Assembly: GCF_022760805.1 (NCBI RefSeq)
Contig: NZ_JAIVFL010000001.1
Span: forward strand, 3,658,001-3,722,000
Origin: Candidatus Mycolicibacterium alkanivorans
GTDB lineage: Bacteria > Actinomycetota > Actinomycetes > Mycobacteriales > Mycobacteriaceae
Reading direction: 5' to 3'
Length of the DNA stretch: 64,000 nucleotides
The position numbers and the translations under genes are program-made. The first letter of the stretch is position 1; each line of letters starts with the position of its first letter. The notes under the pieces are model-generated. The model did no database searches and was not told the origin of the DNA. It saw only the letters and a list, made by a program, of their open reading frames with translations. This document shows, piece after piece, positions 5,554-41,479 of this stretch.

Positions 5554-6609
<1,056 letters not shown>

Positions 6610-6637: not shown

Positions 6638-8434
6638 ATGACGACGATCATTCCCGAGCCCTCCCAGATCAAGAACGAACCCGGATCGCTCGTCGAGATG
6701 GCGTGGGATCCGATCACCCGGATCGTGGGCAGCCTCGGCATCTACACCAAGATCGACTTCGAGAACCGGGAAGTGGTCGAGTGTCACAGCACCTCGTCGA
6801 TCTTCCGGGGCTATTCGCTGTTCATGAAAGGCAAGGACCCACGCGACGCGCATTTCATCACCAGCAGGATTTGCGGCATCTGCGGTGACAACCACGCCAC
6901 GTGTTCGTGCTACACGCAGAACATGGCCTACGGCGTGCAGCCGCCGCATCTCGGTGAGTGGCTGATCAACCTCGGCGAGGCCGCCGAATACATGTTCGAC
7001 CACAACATATTCCAGGAGAACCTGGTGGGGGTCGACTACTGCGAGAAGATGGTGTCGGAGACCAACCCCAGCGTGCTGGCCAAGGCCGAGAACACCGCCG
7101 CGCCGCACGCCGAGGCGCACGGCTACCGCACCATCGCCGACATCATGCGGGCGCTCAACCCCTTCACCGGCGAGTTCTACCGGGAGGCGCTGCAGGTCAG
7201 CCGCTACACCAGGGAGATGTTCTGTCTCATGGAGGGCAGGCACGTCCACCCCTCGACGCTGTATCCCGGCGGCATCGGCACGGTGGCGACCGTCCAGCTG
7301 ATGACCGATTACATGACCCGCCTGATGCGCTACGTCGAGTTCATGAAGAAGGTCGTGCCGATGCACGACGACCTGTTCGACTTCTTCTACGAGGCGCTGC
7401 CGGGCTACGAGAAGGTCGGCCTGCGCCGCACCCTGCTCGGCTGCTGGGGCTCCTTCCAGGACCCGGAAGTGTGCAACTTCTCCTACCGGGACATGGAGAA
7501 CTGGGGCCGCAAGATGTTCGTCACCCCCGGCGTGGTGGTCGACGGCAAGCTGGTGACCACCTCCCTGGTGGACATCAACCTAGGCATCCGAATTCTGTTG
7601 GGCCACTCCTACTATGAGGACTGGAACGACCAGGAGATGTTCGTCAAGACAGATCCGCTGGGCAACCCGGTGGACCGTCGGCACCCCTGGAACCAGCACA
7701 CCAATCCCCGGCCGCAGAAGCGCGACTTCGACGAGAACTACAGCTGGGTGATGTCACCGCGCTGGTTCGACGGTACCGACCACCTCGCCCTGGACACCGG
7801 CGGCGGACCACTGGCCCGGCTGTGGTCCACCGCGCTGGCCGGACTGGTCGACATCGGCTATGTCAAGGCCACCGGCAACAGTGTGCAAATCAACTTCCCC
7901 AAGACCGCACTGAAGGGCCCGGTCGAGCTCGAGTGGAAGGTTCCGGTCCACGGCAGCAACACCATCGAACGAAACCGTGCCCGCACCTACTTCCAGGCCT
8001 ACGCCGCCGCGTGCGCGCTGCACTTCGCCGAGAAGGCGCTGGTGGAGATTCGTGCTGGGCGAACCAAGACGTGGGAGCGCTTCGAGGTCCCCGACGAGGG
8101 TATCGGCTGCGGATTCACCGAGGCGGTGCGCGGTGTGCTCAGCCACCACATGGTGATCCGGGACGGCAAGATCGCCAACTACCACCCCTATCCACCGACT
8201 CCGTGGAACGCCAACCCACGCGACAGCTACGGCACACCGGGCCCCTACGAGGACGCGGTTCAGGGCCAGCCGATCTTCGAGGAGAACGACCGGGAGAACT
8301 TCAAGGGAATCGACATCATGCGCACGGTGCGCAGTTTCGACCCGTGCCTGCCGTGCGGGGTGCACATGTACCTCGGCGAGGGCAGGTCGCTGGACAAGCT
8401 GCACTCCCCCACCCAGTCGCTGACCGGCGAGTGA
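6638..8434 (+). CDS. hhyL: [NiFe] hydrogenase group 1h large (catalytic) subunit
   Basis: A 598-residue catalytic subunit that oxidises H2. The L1 motif RICGICGDNHATC provides Cys79 and Cys82, and the L2 motif DPCLPCGVH provides Cys570 and Cys573, together the four nickel ligands. The 22 residues after His576 (MYLGEGRSLDKL onward) are expected to be cut off by the maturation protease encoded at 12159. Overall sequence, for example ECHSTSSIFRGYS and FITSRICGIC, matches the actinobacterial group 1h (Hhy) enzymes known for oxidising atmospheric H2; affinity itself cannot be read from sequence. The next gene starts 3 bp after the stop. Confidence 0.96.
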   Translation: MTTIIPEPSQIKNEPGSLVEMAWDPITRIVGSLGIYTKIDFENREVVECHSTSSIFRGYSLFMKGKDPRDAHFITSRICGICGDNHATCSCYTQNMAYGVQPPHLGEWLINLGEAAEYMFDHNIFQENLVGVDYCEKMVSETNPSVLAKAENTAAPHAEAHGYRTIADIMRALNPFTGEFYREALQVSRYTREMFCLMEGRHVHPSTLYPGGIGTVATVQLMTDYMTRLMRYVEFMKKVVPMHDDLFDFFYEALPGYEKVGLRRTLLGCWGSFQDPEVCNFSYRDMENWGRKMFVTPGVVVDGKLVTTSLVDINLGIRILLGHSYYEDWNDQEMFVKTDPLGNPVDRRHPWNQHTNPRPQKRDFDENYSWVMSPRWFDGTDHLALDTGGGPLARLWSTALAGLVDIGYVKATGNSVQINFPKTALKGPVELEWKVPVHGSNTIERNRARTYFQAYAAACALHFAEKALVEIRAGRTKTWERFEVPDEGIGCGFTEAVRGVLSHHMVIRDGKIANYHPYPPTPWNANPRDSYGTPGPYEDAVQGQPIFEENDRENFKGIDIMRTVRSFDPCLPCGVHMYLGEGRSLDKLHSPTQSLTGE

Positions 8435-8437
8435 CCC

Positions 8438-9316
8438 ATGGCCGACGCCGATTTCGAGGATTCGCACTGGCGCTCGGCGGGTGAGCGGATCCAGGCGCTG
8501 CTCGCGGCCTGCGCGACCGACGGCCCGGCCGCGCAGGCCCGCGCAGAGCAGTTGGTGGGTGAGGTCGTCGACCTGTACGGTGCCGCACTGACGAGAGTCA
8601 TGGCGGCGGTGGACGATCCGGCGCTGGCCGAGCACCTCGCGGCCGACGACCTGGTCGGCAGTCTGTTGCTGGTACACGGCATCCACCCGCACGATGTGAC
8701 CGAAAGGGTGTCGCGGGCGCTTGACGGTGTGCGGCCCTACCTCGGCTCCCACGGCGGCGACGTCCGGCTGCTCGGCATCGCCGACGGCGTTGTCCGCCTG
8801 TCATTTTCGGGTAGCTGCAGCAGCTGTCCGTCCTCGGCGGTGACGCTGGAGCTCGCGGTCGAGGATGCGGTGCGCACCGCGGCGCCGGAGATCGACTCCG
8901 TCGAGGCGGTAGCTGCCGAGGTCGCGTCGGCGATCCCGGTCGACTCGCTGATGTCGCGGGTGCATTCCGGCAGGCATGAGCCCACGACGTGGTACGCGGT
9001 CCCGGAGTTGGAGGCGTTGCGGGCCGGCGAGGTGGCGGGATTCGCCGTCGGGGACATCGCGGTGCTGGCGTGCCGGGTTGGCGATGCGGTGCTGGCCTAC
9101 CTCGACCAGTGCCCGGGATGCGCCAACTCGATGTCCGGAGCCACGTTGTCCGGCGCGGTGCTGCGCTGCCCGAGCTGCCATGCCCGATTCGACGTGGTGC
9201 ACGCCGGCGCCGGCACCGGTGAATCCGTCGGCCACCTCCGGCCGGTGCCGGTGCTGGCCCGTGACGGCGTGCTGTCCATGGCGGTGCCCGCCCAACCGAT
9301 GGAGGCCTCCGCATGA
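8438..9316 (+). CDS. hhyE: NifU-domain / Rieske-like electron-transfer protein of the hydrogenase (HhyE-type)
   Basis: A 292-residue two-domain protein. Residues about 90-155 form a NifU C-terminal-like domain (VRPYLGSHGGDV, then CSSC at 127-130). Residues about 185-285 resemble a Rieske domain, but the ligand motifs read CPGC (225-228) and CPSCH (244-248) instead of CxH and CxxH. All candidate ligands are therefore cysteines plus one shifted histidine, which could hold a rubredoxin-like iron, an all-Cys cluster or zinc. The proteins called HucE/HhyE in M. smegmatis are reported to be needed for electron transfer from the hydrogenases. It starts 3 bp after the large subunit and overlaps the next gene by 4 bp. 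Confidence 0.85.
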   Translation: MADADFEDSHWRSAGERIQALLAACATDGPAAQARAEQLVGEVVDLYGAALTRVMAAVDDPALAEHLAADDLVGSLLLVHGIHPHDVTERVSRALDGVRPYLGSHGGDVRLLGIADGVVRLSFSGSCSSCPSSAVTLELAVEDAVRTAAPEIDSVEAVAAEVASAIPVDSLMSRVHSGRHEPTTWYAVPELEALRAGEVAGFAVGDIAVLACRVGDAVLAYLDQCPGCANSMSGATLSGAVLRCPSCHARFDVVHAGAGTGESVGHLRPVPVLARDGVLSMAVPAQPMEASA

Positions 9317-10029
9317 CGTCCACACTCGAGGTGCTCTCCAGGATCCGCACCGGCCGCACTGCCCCCCAGCCGGTGGGCGAGCGCTGCGAGATGTGCGCCT
9401 CTCCGGTCGCCGACGAACACCAGCACGTCGTCAATGTGGCCGCCCGCCAGCTCATGTGCGTATGCCGGGCCTGCTATCTGTTGTTCACCGACGCCAGTGC
9501 CAGCCTGCGTTACCGCGCGGTGCCCGACCGCTTCCTGTACTTCCCCGACTTCGGGCTGGGCCGCCGGGCGTGGGACGCGCTGCAGATACCGGTGGGCGTC
9601 GCGTTCTTCTTCCGGAACTCCGCACTCGACCGCACCGTCGCGTTCTACCCCGGACCGGCCGGCGCCACCGAATCCGAACTGGACACGGCGGCGTGGGCGG
9701 CAGCGACGTGTGATCCGCGAGTGGGGCTGCTGGCCGATGACGTCGAAGCCCTCCTGGTCCGCGTGCCCGACGATCCCGCCGCTCCGGAATCTGATGTCGC
9801 CGGCATCCCGGCTCCGGAATCTGATGTCGCCGGCCTCCCGGCTCCGGAATCTGATGTCGCCGGCCTCCCGGCTCCGGAATGCTTCCTGGTGCCGATCGAC
9901 GCCTGCTACGAGTTCGTCGGCGGACTTCGACTGCTGTGGCGGGGATTCGACGGCGGCGCGCAGGCGCGCGACTTCATCGACGGGTTCTTCGCCGGCGTCG
10001 CCGAACGCAGCGTGGTCCAGCTGCCATGA
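9313..10029 (+). CDS. DUF5947-like hydrogenase-locus protein with 10-residue repeat insert
   Basis: A 238-residue protein of unknown function, apparently of the DUF5947 type that accompanies group 1h hydrogenases (family name from memory). Two short cysteine motifs, C25xxC28 and C51xxC54, suggest a metal-binding N-terminus. Residues 157-186 are three tandem copies of a 10-residue unit, APESDVAG(I/L)P, placed just before the ECFLVPIDACYE segment; this looks like a recent expansion. It begins at an ATGA overlap with the previous gene and ends overlapping the next ATG, so it is firmly within the operon. No catalytic motif is visible. Confidence 0.75.
   Translation: MTSTLEVLSRIRTGRTAPQPVGERCEMCASPVADEHQHVVNVAARQLMCVCRACYLLFTDASASLRYRAVPDRFLYFPDFGLGRRAWDALQIPVGVAFFFRNSALDRTVAFYPGPAGATESELDTAAWAAATCDPRVGLLADDVEALLVRVPDDPAAPESDVAGIPAPESDVAGLPAPESDVAGLPAPECFLVPIDACYEFVGGLRLLWRGFDGGAQARDFIDGFFAGVAERSVVQLP
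9781..9880 (+). repeat. 30-bp in-frame tandem repeat, 3.3 copies
   Basis: The unit GCTCCGGAATCTGATGTCGC plus CGGCMTCCCG (30 bp) occurs at 9781, 9811 and 9841, with the first 10 bases repeated at 9871. The copies differ at one position only (CGGCATC in the first, CGGCCTC in the others). Being a multiple of three, it adds 10-residue units without breaking the reading frame. The near-identity implies recent origin, probably by replication slippage. Confidence 0.95.
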
Positions 10030-10709
10030 CGGCCCCCACACCGGATGTGACGTTCAGCGTGCTGGACGTCACCCCGGAACGGTATGCGGTGTCGCCGATC
10101 CTGGAGGCGCACATCGGCATCTCGAGCACCGGCGACGAGTCCATCCATGCCATTGCGCTGCGCTGCCAGATCCGGATCCAGCCACTGCGACGGGCCTACA
10201 CCGACGAGGAGGCCGCCGGACTGCTGGACTTGTTCGGTCCGCGCGAGCGCTGGTCGGCCACCCAGCAGGCCTTCCCGTGGCTGCATACGACGTCAATGGT
10301 GCCCGGCTTCACCGGTGCCACCAGGTCCACGCTGTCCCTGCAGTGCACCTACGACGTCGAGGTGGCGGCCTCGAAGTACTTCCACGCTCTGCGCGACGGA
10401 ACGATCCCGCTGCAATTCCTCTTCAGCGGAACCATTTTCGGCGCCGGGGAGCGCGGGCTTCGAGTGCGTCACGTCTCCTGGGACTGCGAGGACTCCTACG
10501 ACATGCCGGTCGCAGTGTGGCGGGACCTCATCGCCCAGCACTACCCCAACTCGGGATGGTTGCGTCTGAGCCACGACAGCATCGCCACGCTGAGCGAGTT
10601 CAAGTCCCGCAGCGGTCTGCTCGATCTCGACGACGCGATCAGCGCGCTGGTGGCCGGCGCCACCCAGAAGACGGCGTGCACCAACGGCTCCTCGGGAGAG
10701 CGGCGATGA
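10026..10709 (+). CDS. DUF6084-like hydrogenase-locus protein
   Basis: A 227-residue protein without recognisable catalytic motifs, resembling the DUF6084 proteins found in actinobacterial hydrogenase loci (family name from memory). The text alternates beta-strand-like stretches (PDVTFSVLDVTPERYAV, IHAIALRCQIRIQP), suggesting an immunoglobulin-like or beta-sandwich core. The frame is open further upstream, but the ATG at 10026 overlaps the previous stop by 4 bp and gives the natural start. Its stop overlaps the next ATG in the same ATGA manner. No signal peptide or membrane segment is seen. Confidence 0.75.
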   Translation: MTAPTPDVTFSVLDVTPERYAVSPILEAHIGISSTGDESIHAIALRCQIRIQPLRRAYTDEEAAGLLDLFGPRERWSATQQAFPWLHTTSMVPGFTGATRSTLSLQCTYDVEVAASKYFHALRDGTIPLQFLFSGTIFGAGERGLRVRHVSWDCEDSYDMPVAVWRDLIAQHYPNSGWLRLSHDSIATLSEFKSRSGLLDLDDAISALVAGATQKTACTNGSSGERR

Positions 10710-12052
10710 CCCTCAGCTGGGACCATGCCCGCGCCGTGGCCGACGCCGTCCTCTACGAGGGCTATCTGCTCTACCCCTACCGCGCGTCATCCCGAAAAAA
10801 CCAGTGCCGCTGGCAGTTCGGCGTGCTCGGTCCGCCCGGTGCCGCCGAGGCCGGACTCGGCGAGGAAGGCACGCTGGACACCCGCCTGCTGATCGAGGGC
10901 GGCGGGAGGCTCACACTCGTGGTGCGGTTCCTGCAGCTGCAGCGCCGACAGGGCGAGCAGGCCGACGGGCGGCGCGGTCTGCATCCGGTCGAGGAGCTTG
11001 TCACCCCCGCGGGGACCTGGCTGTCCTGGGACGAGGCCGTCGAACGCGAGATCGTCCTTGGACCACTGAATCTCGCTGGTACACAACGCTCCTGGACGCT
11101 GCCTCTCGCGGTGCCCGGTGGGGTCGACGTCGGAGAGGTCGACGGTGGTCGGCTGGTGCGCACCCGCCGCGAATTGCTCGGCGCGGTCACCGTGGAGGTG
11201 ACACCCGATGACGACCTGGACGCCGTCCAGCTCACCGTCGCCAACACCGGGCCGCCCGCCGAAAACAAGGACGAGGCGATCGCCACCTCGATGATCGGCA
11301 CGCACGTCATCGCCGCCGTCTCCGGTGGCCGCTTCATCTCACTGCTGGAGCCGCCGCCGAGCGCAGCGGCTGCGGCGGCGCGCTGTCGGCACAACCGCTG
11401 TTTCCCCGTCCTGGCCGGACCGCCCGGCACCGACGACCTCATGCTGGTCTCGCCGATCATTCTCTACGACCACCCGGAAGTGGCCGAACAGAGCGTGGGC
11501 GCGCTGTACGACTCGACCGAGATCGACGAGATCCTCATTCTCCGGGTGATCACGATGACCGACGCCGAGAAGGCGCAGGCGCGGGCGACCGATCCGCTGG
11601 CCGCCGCGATCATCGACCGCTGCGACGCGATGTCACCGGAGGCGATGCAGCGTCTGCACGGCGTGCTGCGCGACCCGCGCGCCGACGCACTGGTCCCCGA
11701 GATACCCGACGGTGTGGACTGGTGGGATCCCCATGCCGACCAGGCGGTCCGCCCGGAGATCGACGGGGTCATGGTCGACGGGGTGACGGTGGCGCGAGGT
11801 AGCCGGGTGCGGCTGCGGCCCAGCCGGCGCGCGGACGCGCAGGACATCTTCGTCGCCGGTCGTACCGCACGGGTCACCGCGGTACATCAAGACGTCGACG
11901 GCAACACCCATGTCGCGGTGGTCGTCGACGACGACCCGGCGGCCGACCTGCACGACTGGTACGGGCGGTACCTGTACTTCGCGCCCGACGAGGTGGAGCC
12001 GCTCGGCACCGAAAAGCCGAACGCAGAAGGGAGTTCGAGATGGAGGTCGTAG
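10706..12052 (+). CDS. Conserved hydrogenase-locus protein, 448 residues, unknown function
   Basis: A 448-residue soluble protein. The N-terminus ADAVLYEGYLLYPYRASSRK is, as I recall it, strongly conserved in proteins next to group 1h hydrogenases, but I know no assigned function. The middle is beta-rich; the last 100 residues look like a separate small domain (GVTVARGSRVRLRPSRR, DGNTHVAVVVDDDP, YFAPDEVEPL). A much longer open frame runs upstream through the two preceding genes, but that is overlap of frames. The ATG at 10706 sits in an ATGA overlap with the DUF6084-like stop. Its end overlaps the next small gene by 13 bp. Confidence 0.8.
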   Translation: MTLSWDHARAVADAVLYEGYLLYPYRASSRKNQCRWQFGVLGPPGAAEAGLGEEGTLDTRLLIEGGGRLTLVVRFLQLQRRQGEQADGRRGLHPVEELVTPAGTWLSWDEAVEREIVLGPLNLAGTQRSWTLPLAVPGGVDVGEVDGGRLVRTRRELLGAVTVEVTPDDDLDAVQLTVANTGPPAENKDEAIATSMIGTHVIAAVSGGRFISLLEPPPSAAAAAARCRHNRCFPVLAGPPGTDDLMLVSPIILYDHPEVAEQSVGALYDSTEIDEILILRVITMTDAEKAQARATDPLAAAIIDRCDAMSPEAMQRLHGVLRDPRADALVPEIPDGVDWWDPHADQAVRPEIDGVMVDGVTVARGSRVRLRPSRRADAQDIFVAGRTARVTAVHQDVDGNTHVAVVVDDDPAADLHDWYGRYLYFAPDEVEPLGTEKPNAEGSSRWRS

Positions 12053-12159
12053 GGTGGATCGCCACGATCATCGTGGCGCTGATCGTCCTGGCCGGTGTGG
12101 TGATCGGGGTCCGGTCGATACCCGACGTTCAGCGCTACTTGCGGATGCGGCGCATGTAG
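12040..12159 (+). CDS. Small single-span membrane peptide of the hydrogenase operon (DUF6893-like)
   Basis: A 39-residue peptide. After MEVVGW it has one hydrophobic helix of about 20 residues (IATIIVALIVLAGVVIGV) followed by a positively charged tail (RSIPDVQRYLRMRRM), which predicts an N-out/C-in single-pass protein. It starts within the last 13 bases of the 448-residue gene after a GAAGGGAG ribosome site, and its TAG overlaps the GTG of the protease gene, so it is almost certainly translated. Similar mini-proteins (DUF6893, name from memory) recur in these loci. A role in anchoring the complex to the membrane is my inference. Confidence 0.8.
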   Translation: MEVVGWIATIIVALIVLAGVVIGVRSIPDVQRYLRMRRM

Positions 12160-12656
12160 TGGACGACGTGACCGACCGCATACTGATCGCCGGCGTCGGC
12201 AACATCTTCCTCGGCGACGACGGCTTCGGCCCCGAAGTGATCCGCCGGCTCGAGGATCGCTTCGGCGACGACACTGTCCGGGTCACCGACTACGGCATCG
12301 GCGGCATGCACCTGGCCTACGACCTGCTGGAGGACTGGTCGGCGCTGATCCTCGTCGATGCCCTGCCGAATCGCGGATCGCCAGGCCTGCTGCACGTGTT
12401 CGACGCCGACCATGAATCGCTCGGCGCCACTTCAGCGTTGGACGCGCACGCAATGGACCCCGGCACGGTGTTCGCCAGCCTGCGCGCTCTCGGCGGCATC
12501 GCGCCGCGGACCATCGTCGTCGGATGCGAGGCCCTCGACACCGACGACGGCATCGACCTGAGCCAGCCGGTGCGCGCAGCGCTGCCCGCCGCTGTGCAGG
12601 CGGTCCAGGCGGCCGTGGCGATACTGCGCGGCCGGCCCGCAGCACGGGAGGCGTGA
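12159..12656 (+). CDS. Hydrogenase maturation protease (HyaD/HybD family)
   Basis: A 165-residue endopeptidase that removes the C-terminal tail of the large subunit once nickel is inserted. It has the family opening AGVGNIFLGDDGFGPEV and the three presumed nickel-sensing ligands: Glu26 (GPEV), Asp67 (LVDALP) and His97 (DAHAM). The start is taken as the GTG overlapping the TAG of the membrane peptide; another GTG three codons later is possible. Its stop overlaps the ATG of the second hypC. Confidence 0.93.
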   Translation: MDDVTDRILIAGVGNIFLGDDGFGPEVIRRLEDRFGDDTVRVTDYGIGGMHLAYDLLEDWSALILVDALPNRGSPGLLHVFDADHESLGATSALDAHAMDPGTVFASLRALGGIAPRTIVVGCEALDTDDGIDLSQPVRAALPAAVQAVQAAVAILRGRPAAREA

Positions 12657-12904
12657 TGTGCCTCGGTATCCCGGGTCGGGTGGTGTCGATGATCGAGGGC
12701 TACGGCGGACAACTCGCCCTCGTCGACGTCGCCGGTGAAGCGCGGCGGGTCAACATCGGCATGCTGCCCGACGAAACCTTCAGCGCCGGCGACTGGGTGA
12801 TCATCCACATGGGCTTCGTCGTCGAGAAGACCGACGCGCGCGGCGCCGAGGCGGCGATGACCGGGCTGCGACTGATGGGCAGCGGACTCGACGAGCAGCC
12901 GTGA
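12656..12904 (+). CDS. hypC: HypC/HupF-family chaperone (copy 2)
   Basis: An 82-residue HypC-type protein beginning MCLGIPGRVV with the essential Cys2, followed by the beta-barrel pattern LALVDVAGEARRVNIGMLPD and DWVIIHMGFVVEK. It is clearly diverged from the hypC at 1345-1620. Being in the structural operon, right after the maturation protease, it may act as the dedicated chaperone of this large subunit, while the other copy works with HypD in the general pathway; this division is inference. Start and stop overlap both neighbours. Confidence 0.94.
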   Translation: MCLGIPGRVVSMIEGYGGQLALVDVAGEARRVNIGMLPDETFSAGDWVIIHMGFVVEKTDARGAEAAMTGLRLMGSGLDEQP

Positions 12905-13677
12905 CCACCGACAAGCCCGGCTGGGAGCTGTTCGCCCGCTACGCATTCCCGCCCAACGAACTCGGCTACTGCGGGCCGCCCGACTCCTCGGTCCTGCTGC
13001 GCCGCGGTGGCCACACCGAGATCGCCGAACTCGCGGCCGGTTTCGAGGGTGCCTGGCCCTACCTCGAGGAGATCGCCACCGCCATCGGCGCCCGCAGCCC
13101 ACTCGACACCGAGGTGGTGCGCAGCTACTGGATCGGCGGGCCGCAGGTGGCCGCCGTCGACAGGGCGAGACTATGGAGCCGGTTGGGCACGGTGTTCGCC
13201 AACCAGCCCACCGGCGTGCTGGATACGGTCGGCGGCAAAGCGGTGGCTCACCACAGCTTCCACGTCTTCGTCGTCTACCCATGGGTGCGCTTCCTGCACC
13301 TCGACCCGTCCACCCCGTTGCGAATCCTGCAGTCCTGCCGGATTCGTTGGGGCACAGTGGAATCTGTCGACGATGAACAAGTCGTCATGGTTTCACGGCC
13401 GCTGCGGTTCGACGACGGCGCGCTGAGACTGGGCGAGGACACCACCGAGTCCGCGTGCTGGAGCCGCGACGGCACCTCCCTGGCACCGGCACCCCGGCGG
13501 GGTGACACGGTCGCGGCGCACTGGGACTGGATCTGCGATCGCCTCGACGCCGACGAGGTCGCCTTCCTGGAACAGGCCACCGTCGCGACGCTGGACATTG
13601 TGAACGCCGCATTCCCGGCGGCGGCCGCGGCGACCAGGGATCCGTGCGGGGTGGGTTGCCAGTCCCCCGGTCCGTAG
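12901..13677 (+). CDS. DUF6390-like protein, last gene of the hydrogenase operon, 3' end altered
   Basis: A 258-residue protein of unknown function, similar to the DUF6390 proteins of hydrogenase loci (family name from memory). The GTG start overlaps the hypC stop. Conserved-looking segments are FARYAFPPNELGYCGP, VRSYWIGGPQ, HHSFHVFVVYPWVRFL and AHWDWICDRL. The last 18 or so residues (after DIVNAAFP) are encoded by what is, on the other strand, an intact stretch of an epimerase gene, so the authentic C-terminus has probably been replaced at a deletion junction around 13617-13635. The bulk of the protein appears intact, so it may still function. Confidence 0.7.
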   Translation: MTTDKPGWELFARYAFPPNELGYCGPPDSSVLLRRGGHTEIAELAAGFEGAWPYLEEIATAIGARSPLDTEVVRSYWIGGPQVAAVDRARLWSRLGTVFANQPTGVLDTVGGKAVAHHSFHVFVVYPWVRFLHLDPSTPLRILQSCRIRWGTVESVDDEQVVMVSRPLRFDDGALRLGEDTTESACWSRDGTSLAPAPRRGDTVAAHWDWICDRLDADEVAFLEQATVATLDIVNAAFPAAAAATRDPCGVGCQSPGP

Positions 13678-14195
13678 GTATCGGAGACACGCAGCGCCAC
13701 GGCCGGCAGGCCCCTGCCGCGGGCGTAGTCGAACACCAGCTGCTCGGCCTGAGCCCGCGAGCGGATGTAGTCGCCCGCCTTCGGCCCCCAGTCGAACGGG
13801 GTGTCCTCGTCGACCGGTCCGCCCGATCCGAGGCCGATGGTGCCGATCGTGCTGGCGAACACGAAGCGCCGAAGGTCTGCCTCCACGGCGGCGTCGAGCA
13901 CGTGACGAAGTCCCTCGACGTTGGTGCGGTAGAGCGGGGCGGGGTCGCGAAGGTACGCCCTGGTGTCCACGACGCGGTAGTAGACGACGTCGCAGCCGGC
14001 CATCGCCATACGCAGCGCCCGGTCGTCGAAGATGTCGCCGTAGAGGCGCTGCACCGCCAAGCCCTCGAGGCCGCGGGTGGGGCTGTTCTCGCGTAGCATC
14101 ACCCGGACGCTGTCGCCGCGCTCGACGAGTTGGCGCGTCACGTGGGAGCCGAGGAAACCGCTCGCACCCATCACCAGTTTGCCGGCGCCGGCCAT
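13620..14195 (-). pseudogene. NAD-dependent epimerase/dehydratase, 3' part missing
   Basis: From the ATG at 14195 the frame encodes about 190 residues of an extended short-chain dehydrogenase: a Rossmann motif GASGFLGSH near residue 10, YGDIFDDRAL, a catalytic-like region FASTIGTIGLG, and the substrate-side segment VSDTYGPGDWQPTPHGS. Homology stops at VAAAAAG near 13625; beyond that the frame continues only as antisense of the DUF6390-like gene. The YxxxK motif region reads YIRSRAQAE. About one third of a normal 320-340-residue protein is gone, so I call it a pseudogene formed by a deletion joining two convergent genes. Confidence 0.8.
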
Positions 14196-14240
14196 GCCCG
14201 CAGCATGCCTGATGCGCGGGCGAGAAGACAAGATGCCGGC

Positions 14241-14301
14241 GTGCCTCACCTACTTTGAGCGCGTGGCCGGTGGTGGTGCCTCACCTATTTTGAGCGCGTG
14301 G
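14241..14301 (+). repeat. IS left terminus, two 26-bp direct boxes
   Basis: Boxes at 14241-14266 and 14276-14301 read GTGCCTCACCTA(C/T)TTTGAGC then GCGTGG, identical except for one base, with 9 bp between them. They match the inverted pair at the right end. Confidence 0.93.
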
Positions 14302-14320
14302 CCCGGAAGGCTTGCCCGAT

Positions 14321-15580
14321 GTGGAAGGCAAGATCGACATGGCTGCGAGGCGGCAGGTAGCCAACAAGCTGCGAGGTCAGTACCGCAAGGCGTCCAAGGC
14401 GGACAAGACCAAGATCCTGGATCGGGTGGTGGCCACCACGGGGATGGGCCGCTCGACGGCCCGGCGGATGCTGACCGGCCCGAGACTGCCGGAGCCGGCC
14501 GAGCAGGTCGACGGGCGCAGGTTGCGGGCGCGGGGCTTCAGTGACGACGCCAGGGCGCTTTTGGAGCACGTGTGGGCCTTGATGGGCATGCCGTGCGGCA
14601 AGTACCTGGTGGTCATGGTCGAACTATGGCTGCCGCTGCTGGCCGCCGCCAGTGATCTTGACAAACCGTTCGCCACCGAAGCGGCCGTGGCGGAGCTGAA
14701 GGCGATGAGCGCAGCCACCGTGGACCGCTACCTCAAACCCGCCCGAGACCGGATGCGCATCAAGGGCATCTCGACGACGAAACCCTCACCGCTGCTGCGT
14801 AATTCGATCGCCATCCGCACCTGCGCTGATGAGGCGCCTGATGCCCCGGGGGTGATCGAGGCCGACACCGTGGCGCACTGCGGCCCGACGTTGATCGGCG
14901 AATTCGCCCGCACCCTGACGATGACCGACCTGGTGACCGGCTGGACCGAGAACTGCTCGATCCGCAACAACGCCTCCAAGTGGATCCTCGAGGGCATCGA
15001 GGAACTGCAGGAGCGCTTCCCGTTCGATCTGGTGATTTTCGATTCGGACTGCGGGTCTGAGTTCATCAATCACGAAGTCGCCGACTGGCTGCAGGACCGC
15101 GACATCGCCCAGACTCGATCGCGGCCGTACCAGAAGAACGACCAGGCCCACGTCGAGTCCAAGAACAACCATGTGGTGCGCAAACACGCGTTCTACTGGC
15201 GCTATGACACCCCGGCGGAGCTGGAACTGCTCAACCGGCTGTGGCCGATGGTGTCGCTGCGCCTGAACTTCTTCACCCCGACGAAAAAGCCCGTCGGCTA
15301 CACCACCACCGCCAACGGCCGCCGCAAGCGCATCTACGACAAGCCAGCCACCCCGTGGCAGCGCCTGCAGGCATCGGAACATATTGATACACAACAACTC
15401 TCGAACGTGGCCGCGCGAATCGAAGGCATCAACCCGGCCGATCTGACCCGACAGATCAACACCATCCAAATGCAACTGCTGGACCTGGCCAAGGCCAAGA
15501 CCGAGGCCCTCGCCGCCGCACGCCACACCGACCTGCAAGCATTGGACCCGTCAATCAACCGATTGGCCAAGGCGAAGTAA
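14321..15580 (+). CDS. DDE (integrase-core) transposase
   Basis: About 419 residues from the GTG; an ATG six codons later is an alternative. The N-terminus is a helix-turn-helix region (ATTGMGRSTARRMLTGP). The integrase core follows, with the DDE triad in EADTV, DSDCGSEF and HVESKNN (about residues 182, 243 and 279). A basic C-terminus ends at INRLAKAK. The frame is intact, so the copy may be active. GGAAGG precedes the GTG. Confidence 0.9.
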   Translation: MEGKIDMAARRQVANKLRGQYRKASKADKTKILDRVVATTGMGRSTARRMLTGPRLPEPAEQVDGRRLRARGFSDDARALLEHVWALMGMPCGKYLVVMVELWLPLLAAASDLDKPFATEAAVAELKAMSAATVDRYLKPARDRMRIKGISTTKPSPLLRNSIAIRTCADEAPDAPGVIEADTVAHCGPTLIGEFARTLTMTDLVTGWTENCSIRNNASKWILEGIEELQERFPFDLVIFDSDCGSEFINHEVADWLQDRDIAQTRSRPYQKNDQAHVESKNNHVVRKHAFYWRYDTPAELELLNRLWPMVSLRLNFFTPTKKPVGYTTTANGRRKRIYDKPATPWQRLQASEHIDTQQLSNVAARIEGINPADLTRQINTIQMQLLDLAKAKTEALAAARHTDLQALDPSINRLAKAK

Positions 15581-15590
15581 CGCAAGCCCT

Positions 15591-15652
15591 CCACGCGCTC
15601 ACCATGCGTGAGGCACCAGCTCACCCTTCGCGCTCACATTTACGTGAGGCAC
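15591..15652 (-). repeat. IS right terminus, two inverted 26-bp boxes
   Basis: Read on the minus strand, the outer box is GTGCCTCACGTAAATGTGAG onward and the inner box is GTGCCTCACGCATGGTGAGC then GCGTGG. Both keep GTGCCTCAC and GAGCGCG of the left end and vary in the spacer between. Confidence 0.92.
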
Positions 15653-38956: not shown

Positions 38957-41479
38957 CTAGTGCTGGTACCAGCAGATCCTGTTCGCTTCCAACGGAAATG
39001 ACGCGTCGGGGTGGAACGGGATCACCCGCGGTGTGTAGTCCCTCGGCGGCCGCGAGCCGTCGGTGCGGCAGTGATAGCTGTAGGTTCCGCGGACGACTTC
39101 GTCGCCGCGCTCCATCAGAATCCGTTCCGGTCCGCCCTGACCCGCAGCACTGGCGAACAACTGAACCTGAACGGCTTCCGGCCCAATGGCGCCCAGCGAT
39201 ACGAGGATACGGAACGCATACCCCTTGTCATCGGGATCGACATGCACCGTGCCGAAAGTCACTTCCCCCCAATAGTTTTCGATCATGTCCCGCCATCGCT
39301 GAACGTCGGCTGCGATCCGGCAGTTGTCGGCGAGGCGAGTGCGGTACGCGAACGAAGCTGGTGCGTAGAGATTTTCGACGTATTCGCGGATCATCCGTTC
39401 CGATGAGAACTGCGGGGTAAGAGTGGCCATGCTCTCGCGCACGCGCCGCATCCATTCATCGGGCACACCGTTCTCGTCGCGCGCGTAGAACATCGGGACG
39501 ATCTCGTTCTCCAGAAGCCGGTACAGGCCGTCGGCCTCCTCGGCGTCCCACTGTGCCGTGTCGTCGTGCTCGCGCCCATCGCCGATGGCCCAACCGACCT
39601 GCGGTGCATAAGCCTCGGCCCACCAGCCATCGAGTTCCGATACGTTGAGTCCGCCGTTGACGAGTACTTTCATCCCGCTGGTGCCGCTGGCTTCCCACGG
39701 CCGGCGAGGGGTGTTCACCCAGACGTCGACGCCGTTGACGAGCTGTTCGGCAGGCAGCAAATCGTAATCAGCGATGAAAGCCACGCGAGAACGGACGTCC
39801 TCCCGTTGCGAGAACTCATACCAACGTTGGATCAGGGCCTTCCCGAACCCGTCCGCCGGATGCGCCTTGCCGGCCACCGCGATCTGAACTGGTCGATCGG
39901 CGTTGGTGAGAATCCGTGCCAGGCGGTCGGGGTCATGCAGCAGTAGCGCAGTGCGCTTGTACTCCGTGAAGCGTCGAGCGAACCCCAGTGTGAGGATGTT
40001 CGGATCAAAGATGCGCTGTGCTTCGTCGATTCGGTCCGGGCCGGCGCCGGCGACGGTGAACTGGCGTGCGAGCCGCTGCCGGGACCACAGTACGAATCGC
40101 TCGCGGTTGCGGTTGCGCATCCGCCACAGTTCGGCAGCAGGGATCTTCTCCATCCAGTCGACTATCGGCGTGGGAACGCCCTGCCACTGCCGGCGAAGCT
40201 CGGCGTTGGTCCACACCTCGTCGGCGGCCGGGGAGTCCCACGACGGAACGTGGACTCCGTTGGTGACGTGCCCAACGGGGACCTCCTCGATCGGGCAGCG
40301 AGGAAACAGATCACCGAAGAGCTCGCGGCTCACTTCGCCGTGTAGTCGACTGACGCCATTGATGCGGGAAGCTCCACGGATGGCCAGATACGCCATGTTG
40401 AACGGCTCAGAGTGATCGCCCGGATCGGCCCGGCCGAGGCGCAGAATGTCCTCGATGCTGACCTGCATCTCCGCCGCGAACGGCGAGAGATAACTGACGA
40501 CGAAACTCGGATCAAAACGGTCGAAGGCCGCGGCGACCGGCGTGTGCGTGGTGAAAACTGTGCCCGCGCGCGCCACGGTCAACGCCACGTCAAACGGCAC
40601 CTCGTGCTCCAGCGCGATCCAGCGGGCGCGTTCCAGCACGGCGAATGCAGCGTGGCCTTCGTTGAGGTGACACACATCCGGATACCGTCCCAGCTCACGC
40701 AGCAGCCGCCAGCCCCCGAATCCGAGCGCCATCTCCTGCTCCCACCGGACCGCGGAATCCGCCTCGTAGAGCTGAGCGGTGATGCCTCGATCCGAGGGAT
40801 CGTTCGCCGGATCGTTGCTGTCGAGCAGGTACAACGACAGCCGGCCGACGTTGACCTCCCAGGCGCGCAGGTAAACCGTTCGCCCCGGGAACTCGAGGGG
40901 GATGCGGATCCAGGCACCATCGGCGCCCCGCAGTCGGCGCACCGGAATCTCGCTGGGATCGCTGAACGGGTAGAGCTCGTGCTGATTGCCCTGCGAGTCG
41001 AGGGCCTGTCGGAAATAGCCCTGTTGGTATAGCAGACCCACCCCGACCACAGGCACCCCGAGGTCGGTCGCGGCCTTCATGTGATCGCCCGCCAAGACTC
41101 CGAGCCCACCGGCGTAGATCGGCAACGCCTCAGACAAGCCGAACTCCATGCTGAAGTACGCGACCAGAGCCAACGTGTTCGCCGCCTTGGACTGCGGGAA
41201 CCAAAACGGGTCACTGTTGCGTCGCTGCCGATCGTCGACCAGGTCCCGTACCTGCTCGGTGAACGCCTCGTCGGCGCCGAGTGCCGCAAGTTCGGGCGCG
41301 CCTATCGACTTGAGGACCGCCCAGGGGTTTCGCGACGCGGCCCACAGCTCAGGGTTGACTCGATGCCAGACTCGATCGGCTCGGTGGGAGGAGATGAGCC
41401 GCATGTCGAGTGCGAGTTCGTCCAAGCCGAAAAGCGACTCGGGCAGGTCGATCTCGGTGCGGTGTTGGTTCATGGGCAC
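38957..41479 (-). CDS. glgP: Glycogen (alpha-glucan) phosphorylase
   Basis: An 840-residue GT35 enzyme releasing glucose 1-phosphate from glycogen, of the actinobacterial type (Rv1328-like). Landmarks are YFSMEFGLSEALPIYAGGLG (about 110), HLNEGHAAF, TNGVHVPSW, FARRFTEYKRTALL and the pyridoxal-phosphate site EASGTSGMKVLVNGGLN, where Lys is the cofactor residue. Together with pgm it connects glycogen to glycolysis. The frame is complete. Confidence 0.95.
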   Translation of the reverse strand: MPMNQHRTEIDLPESLFGLDELALDMRLISSHRADRVWHRVNPELWAASRNPWAVLKSIGAPELAALGADEAFTEQVRDLVDDRQRRNSDPFWFPQSKAANTLALVAYFSMEFGLSEALPIYAGGLGVLAGDHMKAATDLGVPVVGVGLLYQQGYFRQALDSQGNQHELYPFSDPSEIPVRRLRGADGAWIRIPLEFPGRTVYLRAWEVNVGRLSLYLLDSNDPANDPSDRGITAQLYEADSAVRWEQEMALGFGGWRLLRELGRYPDVCHLNEGHAAFAVLERARWIALEHEVPFDVALTVARAGTVFTTHTPVAAAFDRFDPSFVVSYLSPFAAEMQVSIEDILRLGRADPGDHSEPFNMAYLAIRGASRINGVSRLHGEVSRELFGDLFPRCPIEEVPVGHVTNGVHVPSWDSPAADEVWTNAELRRQWQGVPTPIVDWMEKIPAAELWRMRNRNRERFVLWSRQRLARQFTVAGAGPDRIDEAQRIFDPNILTLGFARRFTEYKRTALLLHDPDRLARILTNADRPVQIAVAGKAHPADGFGKALIQRWYEFSQREDVRSRVAFIADYDLLPAEQLVNGVDVWVNTPRRPWEASGTSGMKVLVNGGLNVSELDGWWAEAYAPQVGWAIGDGREHDDTAQWDAEEADGLYRLLENEIVPMFYARDENGVPDEWMRRVRESMATLTPQFSSERMIREYVENLYAPASFAYRTRLADNCRIAADVQRWRDMIENYWGEVTFGTVHVDPDDKGYAFRILVSLGAIGPEAVQVQLFASAAGQGGPERILMERGDEVVRGTYSYHCRTDGSRPPRDYTPRVIPFHPDASFPLEANRICWYQH

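Follow-up and report, generated by a model that had tools for sequence, protein, structure and literature searches.

The 64,000-bp window analysed here, a stretch of the 4.05 Mb, three-contig genome of Candidatus Mycolicibacterium alkanivorans, contains an operon for a group 1h [NiFe]-hydrogenase, a type of enzyme with which soil bacteria can subsist on trace H2 from the air and which is credited with much of atmospheric H2 consumption (PMC7174314). Besides the two catalytic subunits, the operon encodes several accessory proteins, and the smallest of these, peptide D, is probably an anchor that ties the enzyme to the cell membrane, judging from its sequence features and its distribution. Ten genes lie in series on the + strand between positions 5554 and 13677. 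The first two are hhyS (5554–6609), encoding a [NiFe]-hydrogenase small subunit of 351 residues, and hhyL (6638–8434), encoding the group 1h large subunit of 598 residues. They are followed by hhyE (8438–9316), whose NifU-like product of 292 residues contains three CxxC motifs and a C-terminal Rieske-like stretch that scores slightly under the cut-off; A (9313–10029), a DUF5947 protein of 238 residues (Pfam E-value 2e-67); B (10026–10709), a DUF6084 protein of 227 residues (5.5e-90); C (10706–12052), a protein of 448 residues without a Pfam or NCBIfam family; and D (12040–12159), a single-transmembrane peptide of 39 residues belonging to DUF6893 (PF21833; 1.3e-14). The series ends with a hydrogenase maturation protease of the HycI/HupD family (12159–12656), a HypC/HupF-type chaperone (12656–12904) and E, a DUF6390 protein (12901–13677; 1.6e-88). 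HypD and HypF are encoded upstream on the − strand and a CobW/HypB-type protein upstream on the + strand. The nearest named relatives of C are mycobacterial proteins, and the phylum of the window is taken as Actinomycetota.

The genes and junctions that an earlier note had listed for this operon were all found in their places. It had described the junctions as ATGA, GTGA or TAGTG, which holds for most of them: hhyE/A, A/B and B/C share 4 bp (ATGA), hypC/E 4 bp (GTGA) and D/protease 1 bp (TAGTG), while C and D overlap by 13 bp and the 1-bp protease/hypC junction reads TGATG. E had been placed before the protease; it sits past both the protease and the HypC-type gene, and the interval thus includes one hyp factor, that HypC-type gene (12656–12904). 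Four-base overlaps are frequent in compact operons and prove little alone. In the loci of relatives, with start codons chosen by script, overlaps were counted at 72 of 76 A/B junctions, 54 of 74 B/C junctions, 41 of 72 C/protease junctions and just 23 of 73 hhyE/A junctions. The ratio of nonsynonymous to synonymous substitution rates (dN/dS) was 0.03 to 0.42 for all ten genes against genome G038 and 0.04 to 0.51 against G096, E excepted at 0.79, with the overlapping stretches included in both comparisons.

The best solved relative of HhyL is HofG of Cupriavidus (5aa5) with 1085 bits, and we assign HhyL to group 1h because this score far exceeds the 162 bits of the next relative. The L1 TSRICGICGDNH and L2 SFDPCLPCGVH cysteine motifs of group 1h, as quoted in PMC5364354, can both be read in the HhyL translation. 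Score and motifs together confirm the call of a group 1h hydrogenase operon made in the earlier note.

The distribution of the accessory families was surveyed in 149 genomes of the window's phylum, evenly drawn and including the window's own, with an HhyL cut-off of E 1e-100. A 1h-type HhyL, of 66–100% identity, is present in 20 of these genomes, and six others hold only relatives of 37–44% identity. A, B and C were each detected in 19 of the 20 genomes and D in 15, and none of the four in any of the 129 genomes without 1h (Fisher p of 4e-23 for A, B and C and of 1e-16 for D, treating the genomes as independent, though they are related); the six genomes with 37–44% relatives are likewise devoid of A, B, C and D. 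The 1h genome without A and C (G042) has a contig that ends after B, and a search for B in G128 gave no match; absences in draft genomes may reflect assembly loss. Frequent occurrence of the families without any hydrogenase, which would have argued against their belonging to the enzyme, was thus not seen for A to D in this phylum. The same applies to B in the phylum of G158, an acidobacterium (Candidatus Sulfotelmatobacter), where DUF6084 is found in 14 of 297 genomes, 12 of which have a 1h HhyL in the same fetched stretch. Of the other two, G415 is cut at the start of its contig, and G403 has only fragmentary matches, with HhyL not in the stretches fetched. D was found in none of 14 control genomes, and outside the window's phylum it was seen only at or around 1h loci. 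Within the genomes searched, profile matches show A, B, C and D travelling with group 1h to the exclusion of other [NiFe] enzymes.

Gene neighbourhoods were compared in 84 loci, comprising the best 80 of at least 582 confirmed 1h loci, three plasmid loci and the window; as a sample of best-scoring loci, this set is biased toward relatives of the query. The loci fall in what we take, from organism names, to be six phyla (Pseudomonadota, Acidobacteriota, Verrucomicrobiota, Planctomycetota, Chloroflexota and Actinomycetota). A and B are each present in 76 of the loci, C in 75, the NifU-like HhyE in 82, the protease in 74 and E in two. Seven of the eight loci without A are cut by contig ends, and the remaining one, L088, is also without B and HhyE. 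The usual order is S-L-HhyE-A-B-C-protease. In verrucomicrobial loci it is permuted, with A-B-C-protease-D ahead of S-L, and in G128 it is permuted with C first. The neighbourhood search suggested in the earlier note thus finds A, B, C and D together with 1h large subunits and, with the survey, bears out its proposal of a conserved, 1h-specific module as far as A to D are concerned. In the planctomycete locus L088 (3249–6101), where A, B and HhyE are missing, hhyS is split into three broken frames, possibly reflecting a decaying operon or sequencing errors.

The D peptide of the window matches PF21833 with 54.3 bits (cut-off 24.6) and has the single hydrophobic helix and the tail of that family. 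Its architecture is that of a variable hydrophobic helix followed by a strongly conserved C-terminal tail, PD-x-x-RYLRI-x-x-M-stop; in the window this proposed docking tail reads PDVQRYLRMRRM-stop (12121–12156). D is present in 72 of the 84 loci, across all six phyla. A profile seeded with the window's peptide recovered it in 66 loci, diverged copies were picked by eye from looser scans in L034, L078, L052, L041 and L083, and in L060 it lies on the same contig after hypB. Ten of the 12 loci without D are truncated by contig ends. The gene mostly follows the protease directly; its place is between C and the protease in the mycobacterial loci and in one locus from Pseudonocardiales. Members range from about 33 to 70 residues.

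Of 34,534 open reading frames from 90 sequences, 66 contain the strict pattern D-x-x-R-Y-x-[KRH]-x-x-x-M-stop. Sixty-one of these were scored by script in the operon slot, three more belong by position to the operons of L139 and L140, which lie outside the slot table, and those of L042 and L056 are 4–5 kb upstream of hhyL. A chance origin of the tail was rejected, as the strict motif appeared in none of three shuffles. Among 67 tails gathered by profile, the arginine at −8, the terminal methionine and an acidic residue (D/E) at −11 are present in all 67 and the tyrosine at −7 in 66, while the helix residues vary. A hydrophobic window (17 residues, Kyte-Doolittle >1.6) was detected in 58 of the 67 peptides, and the last 14 residues carry a net charge of +1 to +4 in 66. 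A protein search at E 0.01 with a 50-residue acidobacterial member yielded 877 relatives; of the 120 that were listed, the named ones are called 'hypothetical protein'. Duplicate D peptides were observed in or near one operon at L050:16952–17345, G140:C19:45326–46344 and G092:C26:29044–29136 and 40324–40419.

In the phylum of G149 (Chthoniobacterales), a 1h HhyL is present in three of 194 genomes. Two of them, G201 and G311 (Methylacidiphilum), have three and four pmoA-family matches, and among verrucomicrobial methanotrophs hhy genes are reported solely in SolV and Kam1 (PMC5364354). Both genomes retain B, which scores 130 and 127 bits, C, at 341 and 347 bits, and the protease; the three genes adjoin hhyL on the opposite strand, and an open reading frame just upstream of hhyS encodes a hydrophobic stretch followed by FVRYLRIRQM-stop. 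The hypothetical proteins of the Pyrinomonas operon are said to have no homologues encoded in SolV (PMC7174314), whereas profile sensitivity reveals B and C encoded in G201 and G311. The fetched stretches of the two genomes yielded no HhyE, in agreement with the report that Kam1, SolV and V4 have no hhyE (PMC6688271), and a search of both genomes for DUF5947 gave nothing significant (best E 0.2). Within the genomes searched, B, C and the protease are shown by sequence to be the most persistent parts of the module. That A to D are generic operon neighbours kept together by co-transfer is very improbable: the cluster can move as a block, since it is plasmid-borne in some hosts, but the same genes are kept despite permuted order in verrucomicrobial loci, G128 and Methylacidiphilum, and the module genes are under purifying selection.

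HhyS has no transmembrane segment by script and no twin-arginine motif at its N terminus by eye. In 12 loci checked, no transmembrane segment was found in S, L, HhyE, A, B, C or the protease, where present, with the sole exception of one borderline window in the small subunit of L142, which leaves D as the sole membrane-spanning protein of the operon there. A helix in HhyS or other operon proteins of the loci first scored as lacking D was considered and rejected, none being found bar the same borderline window. From the lack of a transmembrane segment and of a twin-arginine motif, we infer that HhyS-HhyL is cytoplasmic. The 1h enzyme of SolV, which has neither a transmembrane helix nor a signal peptide, is reported to be membrane-associated, yet weakly; the isolated enzyme has a lower affinity (Km of 300 nM versus 140 nM), and membrane association is reported to be important for the high affinity of the enzyme (PMC7174314). 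D fits the role of an anchor because it is a separate helix of free sequence with a conserved tail that ends at the stop codon. It would insert through this single helix with its basic tail on the cytoplasmic side. Basic residues of membrane proteins tend to sit on the cytoplasmic side (the positive-inside rule), which, given the net charge of +1 to +4, would place the tail in the same compartment as HhySL. The conserved tail could then serve to dock the enzyme to the membrane, close to the quinone pool or an oxidase. The suggestion in the earlier note that the peptide is an anchor is therefore supported by its being the only transmembrane protein in the 12 loci, by its conserved tail and by its presence in six phyla, and D is the best candidate, on this comparative evidence, for the 1h membrane anchor that a 2026 paper stated to be unidentified (PMC13332983).

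Oxidases usually have small subunits with a single transmembrane helix. D could accordingly be a small subunit or assembly factor of a respiratory partner, such as cytochrome bcc-aa3 or a quinone-reducing complex, co-expressed as an adaptor. A very weak match of D to the model of mycobacterial CtaJ (E 0.021; 15.2 bits, cut-off 43) points the same way; however, D is confined to 1h genomes in the window's phylum and follows the 1h operon in six phyla, and we consider this alternative unlikely.

Several observations weigh against D as the anchor of the 1h enzyme. It was not found in L088 or in L084, which is cut upstream of hhyS, and no match was obtained in the 1h genomes G100, G103, G124 and G128, all four of which have A and C; for G100, G124 and G128, the fetched stretches were also scanned with looser settings, again without a match (the fifth 1h genome without D, G042, is contig-cut). 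Diverged copies depart from the tail consensus at single positions: L041 has K in place of R, L083 has E in place of Y, and L052 and Methylacidiphilum have G in place of D. It was by their tail that the Methylacidiphilum peptides were recognised, their scores with the D profile being just 16 and 15 bits. The conservation of the tail is partly by construction, as the set was gathered by the profile, and nine of the 67 peptides fall under the hydrophobicity threshold used. The weak membrane binding of the SolV enzyme (PMC7174314) is compatible with a single-helix anchor and with peripheral binding alike, and D is encoded in the Cupriavidus operon even though the enzyme of that operon is said to have been purified from the cytoplasm (PMC7174314, with reference to other work). 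We regard it as an even chance that a D-type peptide (~33 to 70 residues, with one membrane helix and a PDxxRYLRIxxM-COOH tail) is a near-universal membrane anchor of group 1h that makes HhySL a scavenger of atmospheric H2.

Among A, B and C, a conserved motif with multiple metal ligands is present solely in A. Its CxxC-HxH-CxCxxC arrangement of five cysteines and two histidines (C25-x2-C28-x7-H36-x-H38-x10-C49-x-C51-x2-C54; 9385–9474 in the window) is found in all 76 loci with A, and all seven ligands are invariant in the alignment. A thus appears, from this motif, to be a metal protein. No convincing relative of A was identified among solved structures (taurocyamine kinase, E 0.62; TA0938, E 0.5; E7, E 0.68), the small metal-domain protein TA0938 being the sole, weak structural hint, and relaxed Pfam scans of 73 members gave only scattered weak matches, some of them to TRASH or zinc domains. 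In the window's strain, DUF5947 is lengthened by an in-frame 30-bp tandem repeat of 3.3 copies (9781–9880), which divides the Pfam match in two.

HhyE is the published candidate for the electron acceptor: it is needed for Hhy-dependent H2 consumption in M. smegmatis, and HhyE and HucE have been put forward as putative iron-sulfur proteins (Islam et al. 2019; PMC6883350), with a subset of truncated members acknowledged (PMC6883350). The hhyE product of the window corresponds to this protein. Of 82 relatives, 58 contain no CxxC motif (including a truncated call, L054, and an anomalous one, L108), ten contain one, three contain two and 11, among them the window's, contain three. An iron-sulfur role through the CxxC cysteines is therefore not general across relatives, which weakens HhyE as a general electron relay by cysteine conservation. 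With HhyE so often free of CxxC and the A motif invariant, A itself could be the immediate electron acceptor of HhyS, with a redox metal cluster and with membrane contact made through A; MSMEG_2717, a homologue of A by position, is reported to be homologous to PHG067, a proposed acceptor (PMC6883350). We find this doubtful, since A has no significant match in G201 and G311, while the Methylacidiphilum 1h enzyme is reported to be active and membrane-associated (PMC7174314), and the TA0938 match would equally fit a structural zinc site. The absence of DUF5947 from these two genomes also weakens it as an indispensable relay. In the scheme that we prefer, A would be a metal protein that in most lineages partners HhyE, either in assembly or for the exit of electrons, and is absent in Methylacidiphilum. 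The membrane docking or electron-transfer shell envisaged in the earlier note is thus retained for docking, with D as anchor, and only in part for electron transfer, as the metal motif is in A alone and both A and HhyE are missing at the Methylacidiphilum locus.

B and C differ from A in that no conserved cysteine cluster was found in their alignments (76 B and 75 C sequences). Individual positions are well kept: C107 (75 of 76) and C47 (64 of 76) in B, and C227 (71 of 75), a cysteine at the W61 position (62 of 75) and histidines 200 and 318 in C. An alignment of 62 C sequences keeps residues L16, E18, G19, Y23-R26, H200, P250-L253 and H318 without exception. Neither Pfam (at E 0.1) nor NCBIfam gave a match for C; among solved structures, PurS (E 0.55) is an unconvincing relative, and relaxed Pfam scans of 62 members gave Phage_TAC_7 in 14 (best E 0.0032) and otherwise scattered hits. 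Being conserved and without transmembrane segments, B and C are most simply seen as biogenesis or scaffold proteins, and in the proposed mechanism they would be dedicated to the 1h enzyme. An alternative, in which A, B and C are all 1h-specific maturation factors for cofactor insertion or small-subunit assembly that leave the finished enzyme, is one that we hold only slightly less probable than its negation. The three genes directly precede the maturation protease, often overlapping, B and C are free of cysteine clusters, and the purified SolV enzyme showed only bands of 65 and 40 kDa (PMC7174314); however, loosely bound subunits could drop off during purification, and the genes of A, B and C lie with the structural genes of the cluster, not among hypABCDEF. 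On balance, we think it reasonably probable that these genes serve the group 1h (atmospheric) [NiFe]-hydrogenase as an accessory module with divided labour and with D as the anchor.

E has a different distribution. In addition to its two occurrences among the 84 loci, DUF6390 is found in ten of the 149 genomes, eight of them among the 20 with 1h and two (G025 and G134) without, where it follows the large subunit, protease and hypC of another hydrogenase. A hypC-type gene lies within ~1.3 kb of it in nine of the ten genomes. On the locus counts and these non-1h neighbours, we rejected DUF6390 as a member of the module, in which the earlier note had included it; its gene neighbours show a separate hydrogenase accessory, usually near hypC and found with several hydrogenase groups. 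The DUF6390 gene on G140:C8 (L129:7384–8106) has no hydrogenase gene matched by our profiles in the 16 kb fetched. In the window, an epimerase-like open reading frame on the − strand (13275–14249) overlaps the 3′ end of DUF6390. Because its Pfam match stops near residue 208 of 324 (~13625), within the last 50 bp of DUF6390, the epimerase-like gene may be truncated and the final DUF6390 residues may have been rewritten. Just downstream of the operon (14250–15640) is an insertion element that carries an integrase-core (rve) gene and is flanked by short stretches judged by eye to be similar.

A second, stand-alone hhyS-like gene was observed upstream of hhySL in eight of the 84 loci. The eight are L043 (4669–8512), L051 (5193–8574), L044, L046, L047, L049, L056 and L059, and L180 (13587–16998) is a further case. 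In the three loci inspected, L043, L051 and L180, the genes after it encode a PAS-domain histidine kinase and a LuxR-type response regulator, and the orphan small subunit, kinase and regulator possibly constitute a hydrogen- or redox-sensing system. The window's genome contains two further [NiFe]-hydrogenase large-subunit genes, L135 (G000:C1:3573000–3592000) and L136; the former has genes for a GAF histidine kinase and a LuxR-type regulator ahead of it, with a protease and an NHL-repeat protein alongside.

The Hhy clusters of M. smegmatis, R. equi and Cupriavidus necator have the same core genes, and the order on pHG1, hhyS-hhyL-NifU-DUF5947-DUF6084-hypothetical-protease, matches that of the window. 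The earlier note's view of this as the least described system needs qualification, as the cluster and the conservation of its hypothetical proteins have been published (PMC13332983, PMC6883350). The available portions of the published accounts mention neither the single-transmembrane peptide nor the contrast in metal motifs, and the gene tables of three plasmid clusters, which are incomplete, list no such peptide. HhyS is labelled 'hydrogenase expression protein HypE' in these tables (L033:10860–11915, L034:10866–11945 and L035:8796–9884), a naming also found in PMC13332983. In the accessible parts of the open-licence literature searched, no 1h anchor peptide is named and DUF5947, DUF6390 and DUF6893 are absent, while DUF6084 appears in an antibiotic paper. 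The Pfam entry for DUF6893 (PF21833) gives no function, and the diverged members in L034, L041, L052, L078, L083 and Methylacidiphilum were recovered by motif or scan.

Small subunits of the HoxK/HyaA type tether their enzymes by one C-terminal transmembrane helix. The tether proposed here is alike in consisting of one helix, but in group 1h the helix would be supplied by a separate gene, HhyS being without one. D also resembles the HucM stalk of the group 2a hydrogenase Huc (PMC10017518), as a small extra subunit linking a hydrogenase to the membrane; with ~33 to 70 residues, one transmembrane helix and a conserved tail, it is set apart from HucM by the published size and coiled-coil description of the latter.

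The tiny anchor candidate named here and the lack of CxxC motifs in most of the HhyE relatives compared redirect experiments on these enzymes, and S, L, B, C, D and the protease, together with the hyp genes, are suggested as a minimal set for heterologous production. If the proposal is true, D would turn HhySL into a scavenger of atmospheric H2 by way of membrane association, which is reported to be linked to affinity (PMC7174314).

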